NCBI GenBank assembly: GCA_937918935.1 | Contig: CAKZSI010000068.1 | Location: forward strand, 1 to 57,942 | From: an uncultured Chloroflexales bacterium | Lineage (GTDB): Bacteria > Chloroflexota > Chloroflexia > Chloroflexales > Chloroflexaceae | DNA: 57,942 bases | Reading direction: 5' to 3' | In this document: piece by piece, positions 17,818-38,665 of the stretch | Layout of the letters: every line of letters starts with the position of its first letter | Position numbering within the stretch: position 1 is the first letter of the stretch | Program-made: the position numbers and the translations under genes | The notes under the pieces: model-generated | The model's database searches: none | Seen by the model: only the letters and a program-made list of their open reading frames with translations | Told to the model about the DNA's origin: nothing

Positions 17818-17908
17818 CGGCAGAGATCCTCTGGCTGGTCACGGCTTTTCCCGGAAGGACTTTGCGCTTGCAAACCTTCCCATCTTATCATTGTACCCGA
17901 CTGTATTC

Positions 17909-17954
17909 ACCGCAGAGGATGCAGAGGGTTCTCAACCGGCGCATCCTCTGCGGT
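17909..17954. repeat. Perfect 14-bp inverted repeat
   Basis: ACCGCAGAGGATGC (17909-17922) and its exact complement (17941-17954) around an 18-nt loop. A related half (ACCGCAGAGCACGCAGAGG) appears near 54838. It lies just before the lysine promoter. Confidence 0.75.
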
Positions 17955-17984
17955 AAGCCTCAACACTCGCCAACAACGAGCCGT

Positions 17985-18013
17985 TTGACGTTCACGCGGA
18001 AGTGTGCTATCCT
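17985..18013 (+). promoter_or_regulatory. Promoter of the lysine cluster
   Basis: TTGACG (17985-17990), a 17-bp spacer and TATCCT (18008-18013). Transcription would begin near 18020, leaving a leader of about 280 nt before the homocitrate synthase ATG. The leader carries the attenuator described at 18050-18183. Confidence 0.8.
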
Positions 18014-18049
18014 CCCGCCAATGCAATCAAGGGAGCGATAAGCAAGGAT

Positions 18050-18112
18050 ATGCAGCAACACTGCTCCAGGCAGGTCAAGCGGGCGAAGAAGCCGGACGTA
18101 TGGTCTGGTTAG
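18050..18112 (+). CDS. Putative lysine leader peptide (20 codons)
   Basis: A short open frame with ATG 18050 and TAG 18110-18112, encoding 20 residues. The centre reads VKRAKKPD, with lysine codons AAG at 18077, 18086 and 18089. The last sense codons TGG TCT GGT (18101-18109) are the 5' arm of the antiterminator. The weak point is the start: AAGGA ends only one base before ATG, and GGGAG lies 14 bases away. A six-codon frame from ATG 18021, at the predicted transcription start, ends at 18041 and could feed ribosomes to ATG 18050. Leader-peptide attenuation is known for amino-acid operons; this instance is inferred. Confidence 0.7.
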   Translation: MQQHCSRQVKRAKKPDVWSG

Positions 18113-18183
18113 CACCGCTTGCACGCGAGGATCGAGTGTAGGCCCGGCGCACCAGACCAGATGGTGCCCCGGGTTTTCTGTTT
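18076..18183 (+). promoter_or_regulatory. Transcription attenuator of the lysine cluster
   Basis: Three competing pairings are visible. (1:2) CAAGCGG 18076-18082 with CCGCTTG 18115-18121. (2:3) TGGTCTGGT 18101-18109 with ACCAGACCA 18151-18159, 9 bp and perfect, the antiterminator. (3:4) CCCGG-C-GCACCA 18143-18154 with TGGTGC-C-CCGGG 18162-18173, an 11-bp terminator stem with one C-C mismatch, followed by TTTTCTGTTT. A small hairpin (CAC-G-CGA with TCG-A-GTG, 18122-18138) fills the 2:3 loop. A ribosome stalled at the Lys codons would free arm 2 and allow read-through. One at the TAG would cover arm 2 and let the terminator form. Confidence 0.75.
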
Positions 18184-18301
18184 CCCTGGAGGCGCGTGAT
18201 GTAACCGCACGCCAGTGTTTCGACCAGCGTGGCCTCTACCCCGCGCTACTGCCGCCCGGAGCTGTTTGGCGCATGCCAGGTGAGAGAAGGATTCTATCGC
18301 T

Positions 18302-19426
18302 ATGCCGCTTGAGCGCTTCTTTCTGCTCGACACGACCCTGCGCGAAGGTGAGCAGTTCGCCACCGCGCGCTTCACCAGCGCCCAGCGCCTGGCCGTGGCC
18401 GAGGCCCTGGACGCCGTTGGGGTCGAGTATATCGAACTGACCTCGCCTGCCGCCTCGCCCCAGAGCGCCCGCGATCTGGAAACCATTGCGGGCCGCGGGC
18501 TGCGTGCCCGCGTGGTCACCCACGTGCGCTGCCACCCCGACGACGCGCGCCTGGCCGTGGAATGTGGGGCCCAGGGTGTTAATCTGCTCTACGCCACCTC
18601 CGAACCGCTGCGCCGCGCCAGTCACGGCCGCGACCTTGACCAGATCATCGCCGAGGCTGAGGTGGTGATCGGCTACCTCCGCCAGCACAATGTCGAGATC
18701 CGCTTCTCGGCTGAAGACACCTTCCGCACCGATCTTCCCGCCCTGCTCCGCGTGTACCAGGCCGTGGCCGCGATGGGCGTGCACCGAATCGGTCTTGCCG
18801 ATACGGTGGGCATCGCCACCCCGCGGCAGGTGTACGATGTGGTGGCGCGGGTGCGCGCGGCAGTAGGCTGCGACATCGAGTTCCACGGCCATAATGACGC
18901 CGGGTGCGCGATCGCCAACGCCTTCTGCGCCCTGGAAGCCGGGGCGACCCACATTGACGTTACGGTGCTGGGCATCGGCGAGCGCAACGGCATCGCCTCC
19001 CTCAGCGGTATGATTGCCCGTCTGGCGACGCTCGATCCGTCCCTGGTGGCGCGCTACGATCTGGAGCGCCTGCCCGACCTGGACCGCATGGTGGCCGATC
19101 TGGTGGGGGTGCCGGTGCCCTTCGATGCCCCGATCTCCAGTCCCTTCGCCTTTCATCACAAGGCCGGACTGCACACCAAAGCCGTGCTGCGCGATCCGCG
19201 GAGCTACGAGGTTCTCGACCCGGCCCTCTTCGGGCGTAACCGCACCGTGGCCGTCGCCCATCGCCTGGTGGGCTGGCACGCCGTTGCCGAACGCGCCCGT
19301 GAACTGGGCATCTACCTGAGCGAGACGGCCGCCCGCCAGGCCGCCGCGCGCATTAAGGCCCTCGGAGACGAGCACGAACTCGATAGCACGACCGTGGATG
19401 AGATTTTGTACGAGTTTGCTGAATGA
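18302..19426 (+). CDS. lysS: Homocitrate synthase
   Basis: Condenses acetyl-CoA with 2-oxoglutarate to give homocitrate, the first step of lysine synthesis by the alpha-aminoadipate route. The 374 residues form a DRE-TIM metallolyase. The N-terminal DTTLREGEQ holds the catalytic Arg and metal Asp, HGHND in the middle holds the metal histidines, and FHHKAGLHTKAVL follows the barrel. Isopropylmalate and citramalate synthases share these motifs. The homocitrate assignment rests on the short length and on the complete AAA-pathway gene set downstream. Expression is probably set by the attenuator at 18076-18183. Confidence 0.88.
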   Translation: MPLERFFLLDTTLREGEQFATARFTSAQRLAVAEALDAVGVEYIELTSPAASPQSARDLETIAGRGLRARVVTHVRCHPDDARLAVECGAQGVNLLYATSEPLRRASHGRDLDQIIAEAEVVIGYLRQHNVEIRFSAEDTFRTDLPALLRVYQAVAAMGVHRIGLADTVGIATPRQVYDVVARVRAAVGCDIEFHGHNDAGCAIANAFCALEAGATHIDVTVLGIGERNGIASLSGMIARLATLDPSLVARYDLERLPDLDRMVADLVGVPVPFDAPISSPFAFHHKAGLHTKAVLRDPRSYEVLDPALFGRNRTVAVAHRLVGWHAVAERARELGIYLSETAARQAAARIKALGDEHELDSTTVDEILYEFAE

Positions 19427-19743: not shown

Positions 19744-20994
19744 ATGGCACAGACCCTCAGTGAGCAGATCCTCTCTCACGCGGCAGGACGCCCGGTGTCC
19801 GCAGGGGAGGTGGTAACGGTCAATGTGGACCTGGTGATGATGCACGACAGCCTGTCGCCGAGTATCATCCGGGTATTGCACGAGGAACTTGGCGCCGAGC
19901 GGGTCTGGGATCCGCAGCGCGTCGCGGTGGTGATTGACCATGTGGCCCCGGCCGCCAGTGTGCAGACGGCGGAGAAGCAGGCCGAGGTGCGGCGCTGGGT
20001 GCGCACCCAGGGTATTACGCACCTGTTCGACGTGGGGCGGGGGATTTCACATCCGGTGCTGGTAGAAGAGGGCCTGGCCCGCCCCGGTATGGTCATCGTG
20101 GGCAGCGACAGCCATTCGACGGCCTACGGCTGTGTGGGCGCGTTCGGCACGGGTATGGGCACCACCGACATCGCTCTGGCCGCCGCCACGGGCCGCACCT
20201 GGTTCCGCGTCCCCGAAACGGTGCTGGTGCACGCGCAGGGCCGGTTTCGCCCCGGGGTGAGCGCCAAGGACCTGGCGCTCAAGGCGGCGCGCATGCTCCG
20301 CGCCGACGGGGCTACCTACGCCGCCGTCGAGTGGCACGGGGTCGAGTTCCTTGGCGTGATGGAGCGGATGACCCTGGCGACCCTCTCGATCGAGGTCGGC
20401 GCGAAGGCCGGCATCGTGCCACCCACCGGGCTGTTGCAAACCGTCCCGGAGTGGTTGCGCGTTGAGGAGGGCACCCGCTACAGCCGCGTGGTTGAAATTG
20501 ACCTCGACGACCTGGAACCGCAGGTCAGCGCGCCGCATACGGTGGACAACGTGATCGACCTGCGCGACCTGGGCCGGGTTGCGGTGGATGTTGTTTACCT
20601 GGGCACGTGTACCAACGGCCATTACGAGGATATGGCCGCCGCGGCGCGCATTCTGCGCGGGCGGCGCCTGGCCCCCGGCGTGCGTATGCTGGTGGTGCCG
20701 GCCAGCGCCCAGGCCCTGCAACTCGCCGCCGAGGATGGCACCCTGGCAACCCTGCTGGCCGCCGGCGCGACCATCGGCACGCCGGGGTGTGGCGCCTGCA
20801 TCGGACGGCACATGGGCGTGCTCGCCCCGGGCGAGGTCTGTCTGTTCACCGGCAATCGCAACTTCCGCGGGCGCATGGGCAGCCCCGAGGCGCGCATCTA
20901 CCTGGCTTCGCCGGAAGTCGCCGCGGCAACCGCGCTGACCGGGTACATCACCCATCCGCAGGAAGTGGTTGACGGGCGCTATCCGGAGCTATAA
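19744..20994 (+). CDS. lysT: Homoaconitase large subunit
   Basis: A hydro-lyase of 416 residues that converts homocitrate to homoisocitrate through homoaconitate, using a [4Fe-4S] cluster. Signatures are VNVDLVMMHDSLSP, IVGSDSHSTAYGCVGAFGTG and MGTTDIA. The cluster cysteines lie in YLGTCTNGHYEDM (about residue 287) and TPGCGACIG (about 343 and 346). This matches the bacterial/archaeal LeuC-like large subunit and not the longer one-chain aconitases. GAGG precedes ATG 19744 by five bases. It is followed at 21091 by the small subunit. Confidence 0.92.
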   Translation: MAQTLSEQILSHAAGRPVSAGEVVTVNVDLVMMHDSLSPSIIRVLHEELGAERVWDPQRVAVVIDHVAPAASVQTAEKQAEVRRWVRTQGITHLFDVGRGISHPVLVEEGLARPGMVIVGSDSHSTAYGCVGAFGTGMGTTDIALAAATGRTWFRVPETVLVHAQGRFRPGVSAKDLALKAARMLRADGATYAAVEWHGVEFLGVMERMTLATLSIEVGAKAGIVPPTGLLQTVPEWLRVEEGTRYSRVVEIDLDDLEPQVSAPHTVDNVIDLRDLGRVAVDVVYLGTCTNGHYEDMAAAARILRGRRLAPGVRMLVVPASAQALQLAAEDGTLATLLAAGATIGTPGCGACIGRHMGVLAPGEVCLFTGNRNFRGRMGSPEARIYLASPEVAAATALTGYITHPQEVVDGRYPEL

Positions 20995-21090: not shown

Positions 21091-21588
21091 ATGGCTCGCG
21101 TCTGGATCTTTGGCCCTGACATCAATACCGATCAGATCGTTCCAGGGCGCTACGCGCCGTACATGCTCAAGAACGAGGACGATCTGCGCAAGTACCCCTT
21201 TATCGAACATCGCCCCGACTTCGCCAGTAATGTCCGTCCGGGAGACATCATCGTGGCCGGCAACAACTTCGGCTGCGGCAGTTCCCGCGAGTACGCGCCC
21301 CTGGCGCTGCGCATGGTGGACATCGGCGCAATCATCGCGCCGCTGTTCGCCCGTATCTTCTTCCGCAACGCTCTGAATCTCGGCATCCCGTGCTTTACCG
21401 CCGATCTCACTGCCGAACTACGGGATGGCCAGGAGGTGGAACTGGACCTGGAGCGGGGGCGCATCCATACCGATGACGGGCGCTCCATCCAGTTGCCGCC
21501 GCCCCCGGCCTTCCTGCGCGAGGTCTGGGCTGCGGGAGGGGTCGTGCCGTTTTACCGGAAGTACGGGCGTTTTCCTGGCGAGGGCTGA
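21091..21588 (+). CDS. lysU: Homoaconitase small subunit
   Basis: A swivel-domain subunit of 165 residues, LeuD-like. WIFGPDINTDQIVPGRY opens the protein, and GNNFGCGSSREYAP (about residues 57-70) holds the substrate-binding Ser/Arg loop. GIPCFTADL follows. The length is that of thermophile/archaeal-type small subunits. The loop before the swivel (YAPYMLKNEDDLRKYPF), which contributes to substrate choice, differs from the shorter leucine-specific loop. It forms the holoenzyme with LysT. Confidence 0.92.
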   Translation: MARVWIFGPDINTDQIVPGRYAPYMLKNEDDLRKYPFIEHRPDFASNVRPGDIIVAGNNFGCGSSREYAPLALRMVDIGAIIAPLFARIFFRNALNLGIPCFTADLTAELRDGQEVELDLERGRIHTDDGRSIQLPPPPAFLREVWAAGGVVPFYRKYGRFPGEG

Positions 21589-21779: not shown

Positions 21780-21799
21780 CGTTACGCAAGGATGATGCC

Positions 21800-22816
21800 A
21801 TGCGAATCTGCGTCATTCCCGGCGATGGGATCGGCCCGGAGGTGATAGGCGCCGCCGTGCGGGTGCTGTGCGCCCTGGCGCCCGACGCGCTCATCACTGA
21901 GGCTGAGGCGGGCTGGGGCGCCTTCGAGCGTCACGGCGTAGCGCTGCCCGCGGCGACGCTGGCGGCGGCGCGGGCAGCCGATGCCATCCTCTTCGGCGCG
22001 GTTGCCTCGCCCAGCCATCCCGTGTCCGGGTACCGCAGCCCCGTCGTGCAATTACGCCGTGACCTCGACCTCTACGCCAACATCCGCCCGGTCAGTGCAA
22101 TCAGCCTGGAGAGGCCGGTCGATCTGGTCATCGTTCGCGAGAACACCGAAGATCTCTACATCGGGCGTGAGCGTCTGGAGGACGATGGCGCCACGGCCAT
22201 CGCCGAGCGGCTCATCACCCGGCGGGCCAGCGCGCGCATCGCCCGCGCCGCTTTCGACCTGGCCCGCCGCCGCGCCGCCGATCTCGGGCGGCCTGCGCGG
22301 GTGACGGTGGTGCACAAGGCCAACGTCCTTCGCGTCAGCGACGGTCTCTTCCGCGAGACGGTTCTGGCGGCGGCCCGCGACTATCCCGATGTCGCCGTTG
22401 AGGAGATGCTGGTGGACGTGGCGGCGATGCGCCTGGCCCAGATGCCCGAACGGTTCGATGTGCTGGTCACCACCAACATGTTCGGCGACATTCTCTCTGA
22501 TGTAGCCTGCATTCACGGGGGCGGGTTAGGGTTGGTCGCCTCGGCGAACATGGGAGACGCGCAGGCCCTGTTTGAACCGGTGCACGGGGCGGCGCCGGAC
22601 ATCGCCGGGCAGGGAACGGCCAACCCCCTGGCCGCGATCACCTGTGTGGCCATGCTGTTGGAATGGCTCGATCTGCGCCTGCCCGCGGCCCGCCTGCGGG
22701 CCGCCATCGCTGGCGTACTGCGCGATGGCCCCTACACGCCCGACCTGGGCGGTGCGGCGAACACGTTCGAGGTTACGGAATCTGTGCTTGCGCGACTTTA
22801 TACCAATTTCACTTGA
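21800..22816 (+). CDS. hicDH: Homoisocitrate dehydrogenase
   Basis: Oxidatively decarboxylates homoisocitrate to 2-oxoadipate with NAD+. The 338 residues start with MRICVIPGDGIGPEV. The substrate loop VVQLRRDLDLYANIRP at about 75-90 has the double Arg and YANIRP seen in Thermus homoisocitrate dehydrogenase. VIVRENTEDLYIG, VHKANVLRVSDGLF and the NAD site EPVHGAAPDIAG follow. Isopropylmalate and isocitrate dehydrogenases are close paralogs; the cluster decides. ATG 21800 has AAGGA seven bases upstream. The open frame before it is repeat sequence. Confidence 0.9.
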   Translation: MRICVIPGDGIGPEVIGAAVRVLCALAPDALITEAEAGWGAFERHGVALPAATLAAARAADAILFGAVASPSHPVSGYRSPVVQLRRDLDLYANIRPVSAISLERPVDLVIVRENTEDLYIGRERLEDDGATAIAERLITRRASARIARAAFDLARRRAADLGRPARVTVVHKANVLRVSDGLFRETVLAAARDYPDVAVEEMLVDVAAMRLAQMPERFDVLVTTNMFGDILSDVACIHGGGLGLVASANMGDAQALFEPVHGAAPDIAGQGTANPLAAITCVAMLLEWLDLRLPAARLRAAIAGVLRDGPYTPDLGGAANTFEVTESVLARLYTNFT

Positions 22817-22981: not shown

Positions 22982-23019
22982 CTCTGTTCCAGTAACCTGG
23001 AATGAAAGGAGTTCCCGGT

Positions 23020-23187
23020 ATGATCGCCACCTGTCCCGAATGCGGCGCCGAAATCACCCTGCCCGATGACACCATGGAGAGCGAGATCATCGTCTGTCCC
23101 GAATGTGGCGCCGAACTGGAAGTTGTGAGTTTGAACCCGCCCACCCTGGCCCTGGCCCCCGAGGTCGAGGAGGACTGGGGCGAATAG
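23020..23187 (+). CDS. lysW: Amino-group carrier protein LysW
   Basis: A small acidic protein of 55 residues. It carries alpha-aminoadipate on its C-terminal Glu, protecting the amino group during lysine synthesis. A zinc finger is formed by CPEC (5-8) and CPEC (26-29), and the C terminus EEDWGE has the EDWGE tail that LysX recognises. ATG 23020 is chosen over 23002 because AAAGGAG lies eight bases before it. It is 11 bp from lysX. The tail is diagnostic, so the assignment is very secure. Confidence 0.96.
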
Positions 23188-23198
23188 AGGAGCGATGT

Positions 23199-24053
23199 AT
23201 GCGTATCGGAGTGCTCTGCTCGCGCATCCGTGCCGAGGAGAAACTGCTCTTTACTGAACTGGAGCGTCGCGGTCTCCAGTACGAGAAGATCGACGACCGC
23301 GAGCAGATCTTTAACCTGCACCAGCACGAATACCCCTTCGACGTGGTGCTGGAGCGCTCGATCCAGCACAGCCGGGCGCTGTACATGCTGAAGATTATGA
23401 ACGATGCCGGCGTGCCAACGGTGAACAGCTACCACGTGGCGCTGACCTGCGGCGACAAGTTCCTCACCACTCAGGCCCTGGTGCACGCCGGGGTGCCCAC
23501 GCCCCGTTGTCTGCTGGCCTTCACCCCCGAGAGCGCCCTGGAAGCGATGGAGCAACTCGGCTACCCGGTCGTGCTCAAGCCGGTGATTGGCTCGTGGGGG
23601 CGGATGGTCAGCAAGATCAACGACCGCGACGCGGCCGAGGCCATTCTGGAACACCGCGATGTGCTCGGCAACTACCAGCACTCGATTTTCTACATCCAGG
23701 AGTACATTGACAAGCCCGGTCGCGATATTCGTACCTTTGTCATCGGCGATGAGTGTATCGCGGCAATCTACCGTACCAGCGAGCACTGGATCACCAACAC
23801 CGCCCGCGGTGGCATCGCCAGCAAGTGCCCTGTTACGCCTGAACTGGCTGACCTGAGCATTCGCGCGGCCCATGCCGTGGGCGGCGGGGTGGTGGCGATT
23901 GATCTGCTCGAGACCCGCGACGGGCGCATGCTGGTGAACGAGGTCAACTACACTATGGAGTTCCGTAACTCGATCGAGACCACCGGCGTGAACATCCCGG
24001 CGCGGATCATTGATTATGTGCTGGAAGTGGGCCGTAACGGCATGACGAGGTGA
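23199..24053 (+). CDS. lysX: Alpha-aminoadipate-LysW ligase LysX
   Basis: An ATP-grasp ligase of 284 residues that joins the amino group of alpha-aminoadipate to the C-terminal Glu of LysW. It starts [36 protein letters not shown] is the ATP-grasp lysine and glycine loop, and [20 protein letters not shown] is the next strand pair. The metal-binding [18 protein letters not shown] ends the active site and matches LysX/RimK proteins. ATG 23199 has GAGGAG upstream. Some relatives also accept glutamate for arginine synthesis (ArgX). The adjacent LysW and LysY fit either or both. Confidence 0.93.
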
Positions 24054-24150: not shown

Positions 24151-25188
24151 ATGAGCATCCGGGTTTCTGTCGTGGGCGCCAGCGGCTACGTGGGGGGCGA
24201 ACTGCTGCGGCTCCTGCTGTGGCACCCCGCGGTAGAAGTGGCACAGGCCACCAGCGGGCGTAATGCCGGGCGCTACCTCTACCAGGTGCACCCCAATCTG
24301 CGCGGGCGGACGAGCCTGCAGTTCGTGCATCCTGACCGGTTGGAACCGTGTGACGTGCTGTTCCTGGCCCTGCCCCACGGCGAGGCGGCGCGCAGCTTCG
24401 CCCGTTACCAAGGGTTGGCCGGGCGGATCATCGACTGTTCCGCCGACTTTCGGCTGCGCGACCCGGCGACCTATGCCCGCTGGTACGGCGAGGAGCACCC
24501 TGCCCCGGAGTGGCTCGATCGCTTCGTGTACGGGCTGCCCGAAGTCAGCCGCGCGGCCCTGCATGAGGCGCGCTACGCCAGCGGAGTGGGTTGCAACGCC
24601 ACGGCCACCAACCTGGCTCTGCTGCCCCTGGTGCGGGCAGAACTGGTGGACCTGAACCAGCCGGTGATCGTCGAGGTCAAGGTTGGTTCCTCGGAAGGCG
24701 GGGCGAGCGCCTCGGAGAGCAGCCACCACCCCGAGCGGGCAGGGGCGGTGCGCTCCTTTGCTCCAGTGGGCCATCGCCACACCGCGGAAGTCGAGCAGGT
24801 GACAGGGTTGCGCAACATCCACATGTCGATCACCTCGGTCGAACTGGTGCGCGGCGCCCTGGCGACGGCGCACGTCTTCACGGCCCGCCCGGTGACGGAG
24901 AAGGATCTGTGGCAGGCGTACCGCGCCTTTGCCCGCGATGAGCCATTCGTGCGTATCGTCAAGGAGCGGCAGGGGATCTATCGCTTCCCCGAGCCGAAGA
25001 TCCTCGCCGGTAGCAACTATGCCGACATCGGCTTCGCCCTCGATGCCTCCACGGGGCGGGTGGTGAGCATTTGCGCGCTTGACAATCTGATGAAAGGCGC
25101 CGCCGGAAGTGCGGTACAGTGTATGAACCTGATGCTCGGCCTCGATGAAACCGCGGGGCTGGAGTTTCCAGGACTGCATCCAGTGTAG
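24151..25188 (+). CDS. lysY: LysW-aminoadipyl-phosphate reductase LysY
   Basis: An NADPH-dependent reductase of 345 residues, homologous to ArgC. It reduces the phosphorylated LysW-aminoadipate to the semialdehyde. The Rossmann motif VVGASGYVGGELLRLL is at 7-22. The catalytic Cys148 is in SGVGCNATATNL, and a His in the PVGHRHTAEVEQ segment completes the family pattern. GAAGSAVQCMNLMLG closes the protein. CAGGAGG lies seven bases before the ATG. The kinase (lysZ), aminotransferase (lysJ) and hydrolase (lysK) needed next do not follow it. Confidence 0.92.
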   Translation: MSIRVSVVGASGYVGGELLRLLLWHPAVEVAQATSGRNAGRYLYQVHPNLRGRTSLQFVHPDRLEPCDVLFLALPHGEAARSFARYQGLAGRIIDCSADFRLRDPATYARWYGEEHPAPEWLDRFVYGLPEVSRAALHEARYASGVGCNATATNLALLPLVRAELVDLNQPVIVEVKVGSSEGGASASESSHHPERAGAVRSFAPVGHRHTAEVEQVTGLRNIHMSITSVELVRGALATAHVFTARPVTEKDLWQAYRAFARDEPFVRIVKERQGIYRFPEPKILAGSNYADIGFALDASTGRVVSICALDNLMKGAAGSAVQCMNLMLGLDETAGLEFPGLHPV

Positions 25189-38357: not shown

Positions 38358-38507
38358 GGCTTGGCTCCGCCGGGTAGGACTTGTGTGTCGTTATCAGGGT
38401 ACCTGCATTGACAGATTCATGCAACCGGGTTTTTGCCGGGGGACGACGAACCGTTGTGCGCGCGTCGAGTGCCTCGCCTCATGGTGTTTGAGATATTCAT
38501 CCGCGCT

Positions 38508-38525
38508 AGCCCGCGCAGGCGGGCT
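38508..38525. repeat. Hairpin AGCCCGC-GCAG-GCGGGCT
   Basis: 7-bp arms with a 4-nt loop, in the 692-bp gap 38358-39049. No T-run follows it, so termination is uncertain. Confidence 0.6.
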
Positions 38526-38665
38526 TCGCATCAGTAGCCCCCGGCTCTGGTCGCCGGGCCGCACAGCGAATACCTGTTTCGATGCTTCATCTTCATCTGC
38601 CGCCGGCTGAGGCGAAGCGCGCAACCCTTTTCCTCACACCCCTTGCCTGGTTCTTGCATGAGGGA

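Follow-up and report, generated by a model that had tools for sequence, protein, structure and literature searches.

Transcription attenuators of the enterobacterial trp and his type consist of a leader frame, a 1:2 hairpin, a 2:3 antiterminator, and a 3:4 terminator. Attenuators with leader peptides tend to be regarded as isolated, rapidly evolving devices known for a few amino acids, and the T-box is known to reuse one scaffold for many amino acids. The lysine cluster of Thermus thermophilus reportedly has a leader-peptide attenuator. This precedent was put forward in an earlier reading of the present DNA, made without database searches (the sequence-only reading); the report was not found in the open-access literature searched. 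In Rhodobacterales, the uORFC-8-2 motif lies before cysS and places tandem control codons in an upstream frame (uORF) before the cognate aminoacyl-tRNA synthetase gene (PMC8632094).

We analysed a 57,942-nt stretch of Chloroflexota DNA (the window), in which a lysine operon is preceded by a leader that is very likely a trp/his-type ribosome-mediated transcription attenuator sensing lysine. This assignment is inferred from sequence and is not backed by experiment. The genes behind the leader lie on the plus strand and include lysS, which encodes homocitrate synthase (18302..19426; TIGR02146 over cut-off), a lysT-type homoaconitase large subunit (19744..20994; profile search), a lysU-type homoaconitase small subunit (21091..21588; NF010629 over cut-off), a homoisocitrate/isopropylmalate-type dehydrogenase (21797..22816; TIGR02088, below cut-off), the lysW carrier protein (23002..23187; TIGR01206 over cut-off), lysX (23196..24053; TIGR02144 over cut-off), and an argC/lysY-type reductase (24151..25188; TIGR01850 over cut-off). 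By these profiles, the operon encodes the LysW-dependent aminoadipate route to lysine. The aminoadipate-type lysine cluster named in the sequence-only reading held, the operon being of LysW type by profiles.

A sigma-70-type promoter, TTGACG (17985-17990) and TATCCT (18008-18013) separated by 17 nt, occupies 17985..18013 of the plus strand and was the sole promoter-like site detected by a promoter scan of 17850-18400 (shuffle mean 0.0). The spacing of the best match is exactly 17 in 44 of 45 lysS loci, window included, and 9 to 12 of the 12 promoter positions agree with TTGACA/TATACT in 44 of 45; the exception is L026, for which the stretch read was too short to contain the promoter. The leader frame on the same strand (18050..18112) opens with ATG at 18050, closes with TAG at 18110-18112, and encodes the 20-codon peptide MQQHCSRQVKRAKKPDVWSG, with Lys codons at 18077, 18086, and 18089. 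The window is without one Lys codon that its sister genome G002 has, owing to a change of AAG to AGG. The Shine-Dalgarno site at ATG 18050 is weak. In nine relatives the start codon lies only 7-10 nt beyond the -10 box (12 to 45 nt in the others), which suggests that these nine leaders may be translated without a ribosome site.

Several alternative pairings can be drawn on the plus strand between the control codons and the end of the terminator, and this anatomy is shown. An outer helix (18076..18121) joins CAAGCGG (18076-18082) to CCGCUUG (18115-18121). Within it, CCGGAC (18092-18097) pairs with GUCUGG (18103-18108) to form a hairpin (18092..18108) that is, by analogy, the counterpart of the 1:2 hairpin in trp-type attenuators. 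The 5' arm of the antiterminator, region 2, is TGGTCTGGT (18101..18109) and corresponds to the codons W-S-G, the last three sense codons of the frame. Its partner, region 3, is ACCAGACCA (18151..18159), which overlaps the 5' arm and loop of the terminator; together TGGTCTGGT/ACCAGACCA make a 9-bp pairing. A further hairpin seen in the fold (18117..18143), with GCUUG (18117-18121) in its 5' side, separates the stop codon from the terminator. The intrinsic terminator with its U-tract (18143..18183) has arms at 18143-18154 and 18162-18173, which form 11 pairs and one C.C mismatch, followed by TTTTCTGTTT at 18174-18183. A generic terminator scan of the window leader detected no terminator, which we attribute to the C.C mismatch, the loop-length limit of the scan, and the interrupted U-run. 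Folding of the leader RNA, proposed as a check in the earlier reading, gave -71.3 kcal/mol for 18020-18190 (z = -3.36), and none of 200 shuffles was as stable. The criteria for an attenuator, namely a frame with clustered Lys codons, a terminator before the first gene, an exclusive antiterminator, and a 1:2 hairpin, are met.

In the proposed mechanism, RNA polymerase would initiate near 18020 and a ribosome would trail it through the 20-codon leader. With ample lysyl-tRNA, the ribosome would get to the UAG at 18110 and mask 18101-18109, leaving 18151-18159 available for the terminator, and transcription would end at the U-tract. With scarce lysyl-tRNA, the ribosome would stall at the Lys pair 18086/18089 and mask CCGGAC (18092-18097); during the stall GGUCUGGU would pair with ACCAGACC, the terminator would be blocked, and the lys operon would be transcribed. 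Without a ribosome, the hairpin at 18092-18108 would sequester region 2 and the terminator would form. The start site, the translation of the leader, stalling, and the response to lysine or charged tRNA are inferred only.

Much of this arrangement had been claimed in the sequence-only reading. Its promoter, 20-codon frame, three Lys codons, stem sequences, and terminator all held at the coordinates given above, as did its identification of the antiterminator arm with the last three sense codons (18101-18109, W-S-G). The claim that a ribosome at the TAG would mask this arm is supported in silico for the window, the behaviour of the ribosome being inferred, and the trp/his logic with lysyl-tRNA shortage as its trigger is supported, with the lysine response again inferred. 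Two weak points had been conceded and are partly answered: the poor ribosome site by the nine relatives with ATG 7-10 nt after the -10 box, and the count of only three Lys in twenty residues by the AAG that the window lost and G002 keeps. The hairpin at 18092-18108, the conserved GCUUG, and the wider leader set had been overlooked. A Chloroflexota version had been thought undescribed, and no title on these leaders was found in the open-access literature searched, which took in PMC4833913, PMC3556520, PMC8632094, and PMC5584792. Glutamine leaders and most subscription papers were outside the scope of the search, and this absence is weak evidence.

Conservation of the leader was examined across lysS loci. 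A lysS match below E 1e-100 was present in 44 of 61 genomes, and a scan of further genomes brought in Chloroploca, Viridilinea, Oscillochloris, Chloroflexus, and others; these four are included in family f1, as we take it. In total, 46 lysS upstream regions were examined, window included, of which one (L027) has a leader truncated by the end of its contig. All 45 complete regions (the window and 44 relatives) have the leader frame, region 2, and the terminator hairpin; example peptides are MRNVHASTKQSKRAKKPDARSG in L020, of Chloroflexus type, and MFSQQLYLNSKKRSAKKPGSESGLLRRV in family f3, each followed by a stop codon. Alignment of homologous leaders had been set beforehand as a test, and the frame, the Lys codons, and the stems were kept. 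The leader frame was set by alignment, without regard to Lys content, and Lys codons were counted in the zone from codon -18 to codon -6 before the stop. The mean is 3.82 Lys among 13 codons in the leader frame versus 0.82 and 1.11 in the other frames (45 loci), and at least three Lys codons lie in this zone in 44 of 45 loci; L030 has only two. Among 62 leaders preceding lys genes, the fraction with K is 0.76, 0.74, 0.89, and 0.81 at codons -14, -11, -8, and -7, respectively. The stop codon lies inside region 2 in 36 of the 45 loci and outside it in nine. The pN/pS ratio is 0.35 at codons -13 to -6 versus 1.26 at codons -5 to -1 (29 sequences), and it is inferred that the control codons are likely under peptide-level constraint and the switch arm under RNA-level constraint.

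The pairings were assessed in two alignments. In 30 family-f1 leaders, 94.8% of antiterminator cells are paired versus 21-40% when the arms are slid, and the outer helix, 1:2 hairpin, and terminator together are 90.5% paired, with 26 cells changed on both sides versus 13.0 in shuffled alignments, a value that none of 500 shuffles reached. The antiterminator varies little within family f1, where 33 to 35 of 500 shuffles reach its covariation score; covariation within this family alone is not decisive. In 38 leaders of a wider set, 97.4% of antiterminator cells are paired versus 22-40% when slid (0 of 500 shuffles), and the 1:2 hairpin and terminator are 89.4% paired, with 41 both-side-changed cells versus 13.8 shuffled. 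The 1:2 hairpin has about 88% of its cells paired in both alignments. For the outer helix the figure is 86%, with both-side changes at two of seven pairs, and CAAGC or CAAGT occurs within the last 20 codons in only 2 of 31 leaders with Arg codons (described below), so this helix is at most a feature of Lys leaders. These shuffle tests take no account of relatedness among the sequences. Shuffling the antiterminator duplex in single sequences gives a weak result: in 19 of 43 leaders, no more than 2 of 200 shuffles were as good. The Chloroflexus terminators have poor U-tracts, and a terminator rule applied to the leaders found none in L011 and L013.

Equilibrium folding, which disregards the order of RNA synthesis, gives mutually exclusive folds for the window leader. 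RNA starting at 18089 forms the 1:2 hairpin and the terminator, RNA starting at 18101 forms the antiterminator and loses the terminator, and RNA starting at 18113 forms the terminator. The probability of the terminator, P(terminator), is 0.99 for free RNA starting at 18020 and 0.03-0.35 for 5' ends from 18096 to 18102, and it is back to 0.81 with a start at 18103 and to 0.95 with starts from 18104 onwards. It is also high (0.74-0.90) for 5' ends at 18089-18091 in the window, where the 1:2 hairpin is still able to form in part. The model thus predicts that the terminator is disrupted when region 2 alone is freed and restored when region 2 is covered. With the leading edge of the ribosome taken to be 13 nt past the first base of its A-site codon, and for the window only, stalls at 18086 and 18089 correspond to free RNA from stop-11 and stop-8, with P(terminator) of 0.23 and 0.35, and the codon after 18089 corresponds to free RNA from stop-5, with P(terminator) of 0.96. 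The register criterion, that a stall at the control codons frees region 2 and arrival at the stop covers it, is met in the window. Across the leader classes described below, P(terminator) falls by at least 0.5 in 35 of the 62 Lys leaders and 25 of the 31 Arg leaders; the counts are 4 of 24 for transporter leaders and 1 of 9 for Pro leaders. With control 5' ends at +3 to +21, such a fall is seen in 0 Lys, 1 Arg, 0 transporter, and 0 Pro leaders, and with those at -60 to -42 in 6 Lys, 18 of 31 Arg, 0 transporter, and 1 Pro. As a model prediction, this supports a switch in the Lys class; the Arg result is unspecific, and the transporter and Pro classes are unproven.

The GCUUG element is shared beyond the Lys leaders. 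Across an alignment of 58 leaders, of which 25 precede lys genes, 18 are Arg leaders, and 15 are transporter leaders, positions 30-34 are G, C, U, U, and G in 55, 52, 50, 54, and 55 sequences, respectively, although just 2 of 31 Arg leaders carry the CAAGC or CAAGT that would pair with it. The count is partly circular, since GCUUG is itself part of the search models that yielded the leaders. The U/G step of the element lies 12 nt from the hairpin, and pauses of the his and trp type lie near such a distance. GCUUG (18117-18121) may be an RNA polymerase pause site; it is a candidate only, and pausing is inferred.

Leaders of the same build were found in front of other genes. A covariance model of the leader, R1, matched 44 of 61 genomes, and some matches lay away from lysS. 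In the own genome, R1 at E up to 10 found the lysine leader only at 18057-18182 and no further convincing copy; the residue was an opposite-strand match over the same positions (E 0.26) and another at 8.4. A wider model, R2, whose 38 member leaders include 32 that precede lys genes, matched 86 of 158 genomes of the class at E up to 0.05 and 64 of 400 genomes of the phylum at E up to 0.005. Within the class, every match to E 0.001 that was not before lysS was inspected, together with some weaker ones; outside the class, the best match was inspected in 20 of 31 matched genomes. There, 17 of 20 leaders fit the gene or operon behind them, one (L285, before an argC-like gene) fits only in another frame, and two (L277 and L280) look false. 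Matches judged false or unclear overall were L208, L209, L210, L277, L280, and L197, as well as 13 weak ones (L244, L245, and L247 to L257). L197 is a same-build leader with one Glu and two Gln codons, and the frame behind it resembles, by eye, a glutamyl/glutaminyl-tRNA synthetase.

R2 was also applied to 55 lysS loci (663 kb) outside Chloroflexus and its allies. At E<=0.001 it has 21 plus-strand places in 19 loci, every one of them no more than about 400 nt upstream of lysS, and at E up to 0.03 it matched 20 of the 55 loci, each within the same distance. Three of these matched loci are model members (L080, L083, and L091), and four minus-strand matches overlap plus-strand ones. Tandem attenuators were seen before lysS in L102 and L103, and perhaps in L075. 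Another kind of Lys-bearing leader peptide (beginning LVKPLHKRGAKPR) precedes lysS in L089, L096, L097, L109, and L113, from assemblies labelled Acidobacteria or Holophagales, L113 being judged by kinship; R2 does not match these five leaders.

The control codons mostly match the gene behind the leader, and this is shown. Leaders with Lys codons also precede lysT and lysX, and the genomes with a Lys leader before lysT include what we take to be Roseiflexaceae. Arg-codon leaders precede argG, argJ operons, and argC-like genes. The own genome has one before argG (C5 63285-63370; G000, L183), with a peptide that ends in CRRRPRCQSAPRPG before its stop and a terminator, though its model score is weak (24.8 bits, E 0.001). 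Gln-codon leaders precede a gene for a LysE-type transporter, which matched PF01810 in both cases tested; these leaders were noted in L146, L148, L200, L203-L207, L211, L216, L246, L267-L269, L278, and L284. Pro-codon leaders (containing NPNPSPR) precede operons with proS, outside the class in L272, L274, L275, L276, L279, L281, L282, L286, and L270. Per 13 codons, lys-gene leaders carry 3.73 K (n=62), arg-gene leaders 4.33 R and 0.13 K (n=30), transporter leaders 2.92 Q (n=24), and proS-operon leaders 3.22 P (n=9). L221, behind which only 153 bases follow and no gene is seen, is included in the Arg counts with n=31 and excluded from those with n=30. The Gln mean is slightly low through L200, which was read out of frame; L238 to L241, of which L238, L239, and L241 come from duplicate genomes, were dropped from the residue means; and L194, L200, L212, and L225 were omitted from a first residue count, as no 18-codon peptide was read. 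Gene names rest on tblastn to the window proteins or to L183, L185, and L276, and profiles support argG of L183, argD of L271, proS of L276 and L270, and argJ of L185. The window leader appears to be one of a group of Chloroflexota leaders that share this build and carry control codons for Lys, Arg, Gln, or Pro.

Within the transporter class, Lys-rich leaders occur five times in genus g21. Three of the genomes concerned (G076, G078, and G081) have lysX about 2 kb downstream; in the other two, G039 and G074, no strong lysX match was found. The transporters behind L232 and L235 in this genus are 86% identical over 197 aa. The L232 leader is Lys-rich and ends in STKQMKRAKKPDHVSG, the L235 leader is Gln-rich and ends in SQHQQRSQQPDHVSR, both directly before the stop, so that the control codons differ and the rest of the leader end is retained.

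A second short frame, uORF2, whose peptide contains STPRYCRPELFGACQVR, lies between the terminator and lysS. In 29 of 31 family-f1 loci (all except L030 and L126), it carries the motif RPELFG and stops 8 to 14 nt inside lysS, with a start mostly 85 to 118 nt before lysS and uncertain in some loci. RPELF occurs in seven f3 loci and RPELY in L033; the f2 frames between terminator and lysS have no RPELFG motif. Over 29 sequences, its pN/pS is 0.23 in frame and 1.7 and 2.0 when the two remaining frames are read, and by this measure uORF2 is under protein-level selection. When 80 genomes were searched with a profile of uORF2, 37 copies scored below E 1e-10, each located directly upstream of lysS judging by coordinates, and the next-best match had E 0.0017; eight of the many weak matches were inspected and lie in or across other frames. 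The peptide has no Pfam or NCBIfam match of note. The window has a remnant or variant (18199..18312, plus strand) with its stop inside lysS, in which TAA 18202 is the codon right after ATG 18199 and an in-frame GTG lies at 18229. The TAA may be a real mutation or an assembly error. Translational coupling of uORF2 to lysS is inferred and likely, and its conservation suggests a function of the peptide itself.

Other explanations of the leader were considered. It could be a plain intrinsic terminator or a protein-binding leader in which the short frame is incidental, as the terminator does form from 18020 without a ribosome. We consider this very unlikely, given frame-specific Lys codons in 45 of 45 loci, an antiterminator retained through sequence changes, and codon identity that tracks the downstream pathway. 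A nascent-chain arrest peptide, acting through a polybasic stall or by sensing free lysine in place of lysyl-tRNA shortage, is suggested by the common peptide end KKPxxxSG before the stop. It is as improbable, since the last five codons are without protein-level constraint (pN/pS 1.26), which makes their conservation look RNA-level, and since Arg, Gln, or Pro codons take the place of Lys in leaders of similar build. A lysine riboswitch or T-box in disguise deserves mention because both types precede lysS elsewhere, but is all but excluded: the window leader has no Rfam match at gathering score or at E up to 5, and it failed the covariance-model match criterion for both RF00168 and RF00230. In 17900-18400, the sole match at E up to 5 was to a microRNA model and lay upstream of the promoter. 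No Rfam match at gathering score was obtained for eighteen loci of the wider set either; the T-box of L076 likewise falls short of that threshold. Elsewhere in the window, Rfam gave one CRISPR-DR28 match, at 38507-38530 on the minus strand.

The most substantial rival concerns the wider set and holds that the Lys, Arg, Gln, and Pro leaders arose independently, their resemblance reflecting physical needs and Lys-built search models. In its favour, R2 was built with lys-gene leaders as 32 of its 38 members and hence selects look-alikes, GCUUG included, and the own-genome Arg leader and the family f19 Pro leaders score weakly (24.8 to 35.8 bits). Against it, GCUUG recurs across leaders at a fixed distance after region 2, as do a stop codon within region 2 and a peptide end resembling RSG or RPG before the stop. 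In genus g21, moreover, L232 and L235 show changed control codons beside a retained end, and the 86% identity of their transporters raises the shared-scaffold reading and lowers independent origin, which we regard as unlikely.

The shared-scaffold reading can be stated more boldly: a single inherited Chloroflexota scaffold has been retargeted by codon swaps, with a translational layer specific to lysS added by uORF2. We lean towards this joint reading, but only slightly. The scaffold would comprise the 1:2 hairpin, GCUUG, and a switch arm with the stop codon, and would be a leader-peptide counterpart of the T-box. Retargeting would proceed by exchange among Lys, Arg, Gln, and Pro codons, AAG being one base from CAG or AGG, in a phylum that also swaps the attenuator for riboswitches and T-boxes at lysS. 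In this scheme uORF2 would be a lysS-specific small protein or regulatory uORF. If the reading is true, specificity set by a few codons across a deep phylum lets sensor retargeting and replacement be studied directly, and the L232/L235 transporter pair is a ready test case. It also predicts regulons for lysine, arginine, proS, and the LysE-type transporter in phototrophs and soil bacteria. A lack of glutamine or lysine would then be what the LysE-type protein answers to, which is unexpected for an export family.

Like the trp and his attenuators, the window leader has a leader frame with control codons and alternative hairpins, and the position of the ribosome would decide between them. Unlike them, it has lysine as its control residue, its region 2 coincides with the last codons of the frame and in most of these leaders takes in the stop codon, regions 2 and 3 are separated by an additional hairpin, and these leaders are unmatched by Rfam. 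The attenuator reported for Thermus thermophilus would resemble the window leader in placing a leader with lysine codons ahead of a lysine cluster of the aminoadipate type. T-boxes (RF00230) and lysine riboswitches (RF00168) serve the same gene, lysS, in other genomes. A lysine riboswitch precedes lysS in 8 of 10 loci scanned, taking the place of the leader peptide in L059, L061, L064, L066, L068, L070, L085, and L104, and T-boxes precede lysS in L076 (a Chloroflexi assembly; E 2e-14) and L084 (labelled Proteobacteria; E 3e-12), both below gathering score. The presence of unrelated devices (leader, lysine riboswitch, and T-box) before one gene makes lysine the likely signal. The riboswitch and the T-box read lysine or tRNA directly, whereas the window device would read the position of the ribosome. 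The Pro leaders before proS share the logic of uORFC-8-2 (PMC8632094) but differ from it in amino acid and phylum. A Lys attenuator adds to the ribosome-mediated attenuators that are already known; the novelty would be the codon-swapped family.
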